From positions 1 to 64,000 of the forward strand of contig JBFMCL010000007.1 in NCBI GenBank assembly GCA_040754395.1: a stretch of DNA of 64,000 nt, in the 5' to 3' direction. How positions within the stretch are numbered: the first letter of the stretch is position 1; every line of letters begins with the position of its first letter. Both the position numbers and the translations under genes were made by a program. Origin of the DNA: Nitrospirota bacterium. Lineage in GTDB: Bacteria; Nitrospirota; Thermodesulfovibrionia; Thermodesulfovibrionales; SM23-35. The notes beneath the pieces are model-generated. The model was not told the origin of the DNA. It did no database searches and worked only from the letters and a program-made list of their open reading frames with translations. This document shows, piece after piece, positions 40,852-42,151 of the stretch.

Positions 40852-40990
40852 GTTTTATTTTTATATAATGCAGTTACTTTATTTAATAAAAGAAATGCTT
40901 GAAGTGTACGTGATAACCCAACGAACCTCAGTTCCCGCTGCGGACAAAAGGTTCTGACGGCCAGGCCTCCGGCCCGTGTTATCACACGAT

Positions 40991-41194
40991 TCAGGCTCCG
41001 CCGAAGCCGATGCTCACCTTCCCTTCCTCAACTATGACCGGCACTTTCCGTATGCCCCCTGAAAGCACCAGCATCTCCTCAAACTTCTCGCTGTCTTCAA
41101 TTACATCGAAATACTGTGCTGATTCTCCGAAAGCCGCAAGGGCCTTTCCGGTATAGGGTCAACCCTTTTTTCCATAGATGACTATACCTTCCAT
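40991..41194 (-). CDS. UXX-star-type selenoprotein, 67 aa, UGA at codon 12 read as Sec
   Basis: ATG at 41194 follows AAGGAGGAAGGGAG. The frame reads MEGIVIYGKKG-U-PYTGKALA, then AFGESAQYFDVIEDSEKFEE, MLVLSGGIRKVPVIVEEGKV and SIGFGGA with stop TGA at 40991. The TGA at 41159-41161 sits exactly where glutaredoxin/thioredoxin-like proteins carry the catalytic Cys, in a U-P-Y-T motif; a cis-Pro follows in VPVIV. A hairpin lies 7 nt after the TGA. Ordinary gene calls would miss it because the TGA splits the frame. No Sec machinery genes lie in this window. Confidence 0.85.
41127..41151 (-). promoter_or_regulatory. Putative bacterial SECIS hairpin
   Basis: Starting 7 nt after the in-frame UGA, CCG-G-AAAG-G-CC, loop CUUGC, GG-CUUU-CGG folds with CC/GG, AAAG/CUUU and CCG/CGG pairs and two bulged G residues. 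Its apex lies about 20 nt after the UGA, the usual bacterial distance. Confidence 0.6.
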
Positions 41195-41245
41195 TGTCGC
41201 TCCCTTCCTCCTTCATGAGATCCCTGATAACTGCTCTGTGTACTC

Positions 41246-42151
41246 CTATGCATTGAGATATCTCCGGGGGTTTTCTGTAATACACCTGTGCACCATCTGT
41301 CTCGCATAGCCTATGCGTATGAGTCTGCCGGCAGACTCGGTCACTGTCATGCTTCCGCCGAGAAGTCTGCCCTTTGCATCAGAAATGGCTTTTTCCGGAC
41401 GTTGAGAAGTGTTTGTCCCCTTCACCATATCCGACACGATGAGAATCCTTTTGTGATCTTTTGCGCGGAATATCAGGCCGAGCGTCTCCGGGTGAAGATG
41501 ATACGGGTCTGCGATAACCTCAATATACACATCCCTGTTTAGGAGCCCGAACCCGGCTATCCCGGGTTCCCGGTGATGCATCCCCCGCATGGCATTAAAG
41601 ATATGGGTAATCCCGCGTGCTCCCGCCCTGAACCCGGCCTCTGCTTCGGCAAACGTCGCATCAGAGTGTCCCATATTGACAATCACCCCCTTCTGGGAGA
41701 CTTCTTTTATCAGCCGCAGCGCTCCCGGCATTTCAGGAGCAATTGTAATAATCCTGACCACCTCTTCGAATCCCTCAGTGAGTCTCCTGTAGGTGTATTC
41801 TGCCGGATTGCTCAGAAATCGTTTTTTGAGCGCCCCGCACTGTACCGGATTCAGAAATGGGCCTTCAAGATGTATCCCGATAATTCTTGCTGCCCCTTTT
41901 CTGCTGCCCATTGCCTGCTGTACATCCATCGCCTTGGCAACTGTCAGCATGTGGTCTCTCATGGTGTGTATCGCAGACGGATACACCGAAAGGACTATTT
42001 CAGAGACCCCTTGCGCGCCATGGAGCTCAGCGATTTTCAGGATCTCCTCTGCCCTGGTCGTCTGCGTGTCATACCCGGCAATACCATGCGTATGGAGGTC
42101 GGTGGTTCTCATCTGAAAGTATGATACCACAGGAAGAACAGGCCTCCGCAC
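41246..42151 (-). CDS. Short NagA-like N-acetylglucosamine-6-phosphate deacetylase
   Basis: The frame is open from GTG 42151, but the conserved protein begins at MRTTDLHTHG (ATG 42112). Motifs: TDLHTHGIAGYDT, IGIHLEGPFLNP, MGHSDATFAEAEAGF, GITHIFNAMRGMHHREPGI and LIVSDMVKGT (catalytic Asp). At ~290 residues it lacks the N- and C-terminal beta-sandwich parts of the usual ~380-aa enzyme, leaving only the barrel. Predicted deacetylase of GlcNAc-6-P or an anhydro-sugar; its neighbours suggest cell-wall recycling. No clear SD is seen at either start. Confidence 0.8.
   Translation of the reverse strand: MRRPVLPVVSYFQMRTTDLHTHGIAGYDTQTTRAEEILKIAELHGAQGVSEIVLSVYPSAIHTMRDHMLTVAKAMDVQQAMGSRKGAARIIGIHLEGPFLNPVQCGALKKRFLSNPAEYTYRRLTEGFEEVVRIITIAPEMPGALRLIKEVSQKGVIVNMGHSDATFAEAEAGFRAGARGITHIFNAMRGMHHREPGIAGFGLLNRDVYIEVIADPYHLHPETLGLIFRAKDHKRILIVSDMVKGTNTSQRPEKAISDAKGRLLGGSMTVTESAGRLIRIGYARQMVHRCITENPRRYLNA

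Follow-up and report, generated by a model that had tools for sequence, protein, structure and literature searches.

The UXX-star gene and its reading frame

The window, by which we mean the whole 64,000-nt stretch of DNA analysed here, carries on its minus strand a gene of UXX-star selenoprotein family 1 (40982..41194, 70 codons plus stop) and, 51 nt upstream of it, a NagA-like gene (41246..42151). The frame of the UXX-star gene opens with an ATG at 41194, preceded by a purine-rich ribosome binding site region (AGGAGGAAGGGAG, 41200..41212) with AGGAGG at 41212-41207 and GGGAG at 41204-41200, in agreement with the good ribosome site noted in the first-pass annotation of this DNA. With TGA read as selenocysteine (Sec), the frame runs from MEGIVIYGKKG-U-PYTGK to KVPVIVEEGKVSIGFGGA and reaches a second TGA at 40993-40991, which the first-pass annotation had taken as the terminator of a 67-residue protein containing a single Sec. 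The readthrough frame from 41194 to 40991 held up, but this codon is a second Sec codon and the protein is 70 aa long, reading MEGIVIYGKKG-U-PYTGKALAAFGESAQYFDVIEDSEKFEEMLVLSGGIRKVPVIVEEGKVSIGFGGA-U-I-V. The first Sec codon (Sec12, UGA, 41159..41161) lies at the glutaredoxin active-site Cys position in U-P-Y-T and the second (Sec68, UGA, 40991..40993) in the tail GGA-U-I-V-stop. The tail codons (GGA-GCC-TGA-ATC-GTG-TGA-TAA) end in Sec68, I, V and a stop, an exact match to the orthologue layout described below. The true stop is a UGA (codon 71, 40982..40984), 9 nt from the Sec68 UGA and followed directly by a UAA (40979-40981); its position is fixed by the orthologues.

Between both UGAs, the window gene differs from its orthologues at 24% of first, 25% of second and 60% of third codon positions, and this concentration at third positions is a coding pattern. 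The gene on the minus strand is genuine; after correction it spans 40982-41194 and holds one Sec more than first proposed.

The 301-aa NagA-like protein aligns with no more than the central part of the NagA model (N-acetylglucosamine-6-phosphate deacetylase; TIGR00221, 171 bits, below the cut-off of 225.65), and a Pfam search gave no family at E <= 1e-5. Six other loci of the same family have a similar NagA-like gene upstream of the orthologue. The protein is probably a deacetylase that has diverged and that is linked with the UXX-star gene in this family; the neighbours differ in other relatives, so that it says little about function.

Orthologues and the second selenocysteine codon

A tblastn search gave matches in 36 of 149 related genomes (the window's own included), with a stop codon inside every match. 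Orthologues of the UGA-containing gene thus occur, at 48-69% identity, in 35/149 related genomes besides the window's own, with one copy that has UAA, which argues that the match of the UGA-containing frame is not due to chance. We read 30 of the orthologous loci through both in-frame stops. Position 12 is encoded by UGA in 29/30 and by UAA in the remaining one. The second UGA is present in 30/30, after GG[A/S/T] or a near variant, and is never UAA or UAG. In all 30, one variable residue and a V or I come next, before a stop for which all three codons are used (13 UAA, 9 UGA, 8 UAG). A real stop at 40993-40991 would vary in the same way, and the codons after it would not be conserved; we therefore read this UGA as a Sec codon. 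The single Sec of the first-pass annotation consequently falls short, as it missed both the C-terminal Sec68 and the hairpin past the true stop.

The same layout extends beyond these genomes. NF041212, NCBI's independent subfamily model, aligns through two TGAs ("2 TGA") in most of its best matches across the phylum. Of the 30 Uxx-star loci fetched across the phylum, all those read (L136 not among them) carry the tail UGA, followed by x-V/I-stop with the exception of L135, which has UGVR-stop.

The copy with UAA for UGA at position 12 (L022:1495-1710, related genome G064) is intact elsewhere and lies on the same contig as the UCA tRNA-Sec of that genome, about 0.7 kb away. A Sec encoded by UAA was considered and rejected for this copy: the genome has a UCA tRNA-Sec and a GCA selC-like tRNA, with no UUA version among the matches examined. 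The UAA may reflect decay, a consensus error or something odder.

The frequency of Sec relative to Cys at position 12 cannot be read from the scan of 84,980 species genomes for Cys-containing homologues, as its pattern required Cys12. The scan returned 18 relatives, of which 16 are UXX-star proteins with Cys12, from Pelotomaculum, Desulfotruncus and various metagenome-assembled genomes. The remaining two are unrelated glutaredoxins and were set aside. The occurrence of Cys at this position in other organisms supports the first-pass annotation. In all 16 Cys12 homologues the C-terminal UGA is retained, with two residues and a stop behind it, and no homologue examined has Cys at the C-terminal Sec position. 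At the level of sequence, Sec12 is exchangeable with Cys, and the C-terminal Sec is never replaced in the sequences examined.

Family membership and predicted fold

The assignment as a UXX-star selenoprotein gene with an in-frame UGA at 41161-41159 on the minus strand was confirmed by NF041114 (UXX-star selenoprotein family 1), which matches over model positions 1-70 with 97.5 bits against a cut-off of 72. The family has been listed as "distant Grx-like protein 1", with UxxT and two Sec (PMC13188914). Besides its full-length, above-cut-off match, the window gene has UxxT at Sec12 in the active-site position and a C-terminal Sec-X-X-stop, here Sec-x-V-stop. It differs in its tail, U-I-V instead of the common U-G-V, and in its hairpin loops, CUUGC and GGA versus the relatives' AGGUC and GUU. 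A known and already catalogued selenoprotein family therefore gains a member. The first-pass annotation was right that UXX-star is a recognised family, but the name very probably refers to the Sec-X-X-stop at the C-terminus and not, as it had been understood there, to the UxxT motif. Its expectation that standard gene calling drops the gene fits general gene callers, but NCBI has a curated model for the family. Families 2 and 3 (NF041211, NF047338) and the HUGP/GUXX-star fusion (NF045501) have their fold in common with the window protein by profile; membership in them was rejected at approximately 42-44 bits against cut-offs of 97-325.

The proposed position of the UGA at the redox Cys of a glutaredoxin-like fold was supported by structure prediction. 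AlphaFold2, run on 29 orthologues with Sec entered as Cys, gave a pLDDT of 94.9, and the best PDB matches of the predicted fold are glutaredoxins and NrdH-redoxins (4tr0, 3qmx, 1h75; TM-score of 0.67-0.75 by query length). The VPVIV cis-Pro strand is as previously described. The protein resembles glutaredoxin 3 and NrdH (TIGR02181, TIGR02194) in its fold, the cis-Pro VP strand and the GG motif. In contrast to them, it has UxxT instead of CxxC, without the second active-site Cys, and its chain ends after the GG motif with a C-terminal Sec added. As the chain ends just after this motif, Sec68 stands in place of the last part of a normal glutaredoxin. A classical glutaredoxin with a CxxC/CxxS site was excluded on the basis of the UxxT and of the profile scores (25 bits versus 90 for TIGR02181; TIGR02194 also far below its cut-off).

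SECIS-like hairpins after each UGA

Each UGA is followed by a hairpin that shows compensatory changes across relatives. Hairpin 1 (AAGGCC-CUUGC-GGCUUU, 41130..41146, minus strand) has its loop 18 nt after the Sec12 UGA. The first-pass annotation had placed a hairpin 7 nt after this UGA; a start there is possible and the pairing covaries in relatives, but the window copy alone is no more stable than shuffled sequences (z = -0.40, 59/200 shuffles as good) and lacks an early loop G. Since folding of the single sequence was not significant, we relied on covariation. In 27 sequences, a 5-bp stem at a fixed distance has 94.1% of its cells paired, and 13 cells are changed on both sides. None of 500 shuffles equalled either of these values or the covariation score; the pairing was lost when the partner was slid. 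Counts of pairs changed on both sides (374/500 shuffles) and of pair types (76/500) were unexceptional. The consensus loop is AGGUC, with CUUGC in the window and CUUGA in two loci of the same family (L018 and L021). In these three genes, the CUUG(A/C) loop comes with stem changes that preserve pairing.

Hairpin 2 (CGGGCC-GGA-GGCCUG, 40962..40976, minus strand) is 20 nt after the Sec68 UGA and lies wholly 3′ of the stop; an alternative, overlapping hairpin (GGCCGG-AGGC-CUGGCC) can form at 40959-40974. A strong hairpin past the stop codon is found in most loci, for example CCGAUA-GUU-UAUCGG, CAGACA-GUU-UGUCUG and CCGGUG-GUU-CACCGG, and the loop is GUU in the relatives' consensus versus GGA in the window. 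Because the spacing varies, no consensus structure came out of a plain MAFFT alignment of the 3′ regions, and the loci had to be anchored on the loop. With 18 loci anchored in this way, 99% of arm cells were paired in register, versus 79% with permuted arms. As anchoring leans towards pairing, we quote beside it a separate test with mononucleotide shuffles, in which the mean number of Watson-Crick pairs was 6.07 versus 2.74 in shuffles (shuffle maximum of 3.33). The window's own hairpin 2 segment is more stable than its shuffles (z -2.11).

The bacterial SECIS model specifies a loop of 3-9 nt, a stem of 4-16 bp, a UGA-to-loop distance of 16-37 nt, an MFE <= -7.5 and a G among the first two loop positions (PMC13188914). 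Both hairpins lie within the numerical limits, hairpin 1 with a 5-nt loop, 6 bp, 18 nt and -10.0, and hairpin 2 with a 3-nt loop, 6 bp, 20 nt and -17.3 for the whole segment, whose MFE structure is the overlapping alternative hairpin. The early loop G is present in hairpin 2 (GGA, and also in the alternative AGGC) and absent in hairpin 1 (CUUGC). Bacterial SECIS elements have been described as lying inside coding regions (PMC13188914, review).

Selenocysteine machinery of the host genome

The first-pass annotation had supposed that the organism makes Sec. The genome has a tRNA-Sec (selC) with anticodon UCA (contig C1, C1:231988, 71 bits) and a selD (C11:63923, L046:1492-2535, 344.9 bits), which is a selenoprotein gene itself with an in-frame UGA at its SGU active-site motif. 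To this extent the organism is equipped for Sec, but model searches gave no match for selA or selB in the 99.96%-complete assembly. The first-pass annotation had named a genome without selA, selB and selC as evidence against its claim; on this point the picture is mixed, with selC there and the other two missing from the assembly. Seven matches to the SelB model were obtained, none at cut-off; the best is IF-2 and the others resemble other elongation factors, as judged by frame length and place only, and all were discarded. The near-universal gene purF also has no match above cut-off in the assembly. The sole match to the PurF model (108 bits to the first half of the model, in a 609-aa frame) was taken to be GlmS, given the cross-match of real PurF to GlmS.

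Among the related genomes, selA scores above cut-off in 130/149, and the gene order in two relatives of the same family is selC ... selA ... purF ... selB. In one of these two relatives, as on C1, selC comes after a carbon-nitrogen hydrolase and endonuclease V. About 1.3 kb past selC, contig C1 breaks off within a transposase element (insertion sequence), the terminal sequences of which are found again at or close to the tips of other contigs. A missing contig would explain the absence of selA, purF and selB at once. Hence, selA and selB were probably not lost and are most likely to lie in the unassembled part of the genome.

A second selC-like tRNA, missed by ARAGORN, is found at C16:80860-80959 (L009:1501-1600; RF01852, 58.5 bits). 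Its anticodon is GCA (Cys), which fits the described selC* tRNA-Cys (PMC7609411), and a related genome (L098) has a similar tRNA.

Discussion

The locus is, with high confidence, a functional gene for a 70-residue selenoprotein of UXX-star family 1, with a truncated glutaredoxin/NrdH-like fold and two Sec. Translation would start at 41194, and SelB, guided by the hairpin after each UGA, would bring Sec-tRNA to UGA12 and UGA68, the hairpin for Sec68 sitting beyond the stop codon. The ribosome would then terminate at the third in-frame UGA, two codons past Sec68. Sec12 would take the site of the nucleophilic Cys of glutaredoxins, with Sec68 in a GG-x-U tail that would replace the end of the normal fold. 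Sec insertion itself at UGA12 and UGA68 is what we infer from the sequence.

A protein of 67 residues with Sec12 only would result if translation ended at the TGA at 40993-40991. In its favour, the standard code has TGA as a stop, and by this point the frame already makes a complete glutaredoxin-like core. This reading is nevertheless very improbable, since the codon is UGA in 30/30 orthologues and is followed by two codons, the second for V or I, before any of the three stops; in addition, there is a second covarying hairpin, and NF041114 extends to position 70. Hardly more probable is a relic: selA and selB would be gone from the lineage, leaving both UGAs to serve as stops in a decaying gene. 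The lack of both genes in a 99.96%-complete assembly is in line with such a loss, as is the deviation of both window hairpins from the relatives' loop consensus. Against it, purF, located between selA and selB in relatives, is also missing, and the selC contig breaks off 1.3 kb on in an insertion sequence whose ends recur at other contig tips. Moreover, selC and the UGA-containing selD are intact, and so is the frame of the UXX-star gene, whose differences from relatives are concentrated at third codon positions. The second selC-like tRNA (C16:80860-80959) could also suggest that an unusual tRNA reads the UGAs as another amino acid, such as Cys, but its GCA anticodon would read Cys codons rather than UGA, and the tRNA that does read UGA is a standard tRNA-Sec, so that we give this idea almost no weight.

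On the preferred reading of a double selenoprotein gene, it is possible, if somewhat doubtful, that two SECIS elements serve the gene, one of them wholly past the stop, and that its three in-frame UGAs have two meanings; both loops would then have left the usual G(G/U) pattern in this lineage, perhaps with a matching change in SelB. As to function, the two selenols may cooperate, forming a redox pair or binding a soft metal(loid) or electrophile as a two-selenol ligand. This is a guess from the fold and the placement of the residues, to which we give a little less than an even chance; UXX-star family 1 has been suggested to be a metal(loid)-binding selenoprotein (PMC13188914).

Genes of this kind tend to escape gene callers, and a reader who spots the first UGA may still cut the protein short at the next one. 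The family offers a compact natural case of UGA used as Sec and, two codons on, as stop (9/30 orthologues), as well as a test case for a bacterial SECIS placed past the stop codon. Position 12 can be Sec or Cys, whereas the C-terminal Sec is invariant, which suggests that the functional core of this uncharacterised family is its tail.
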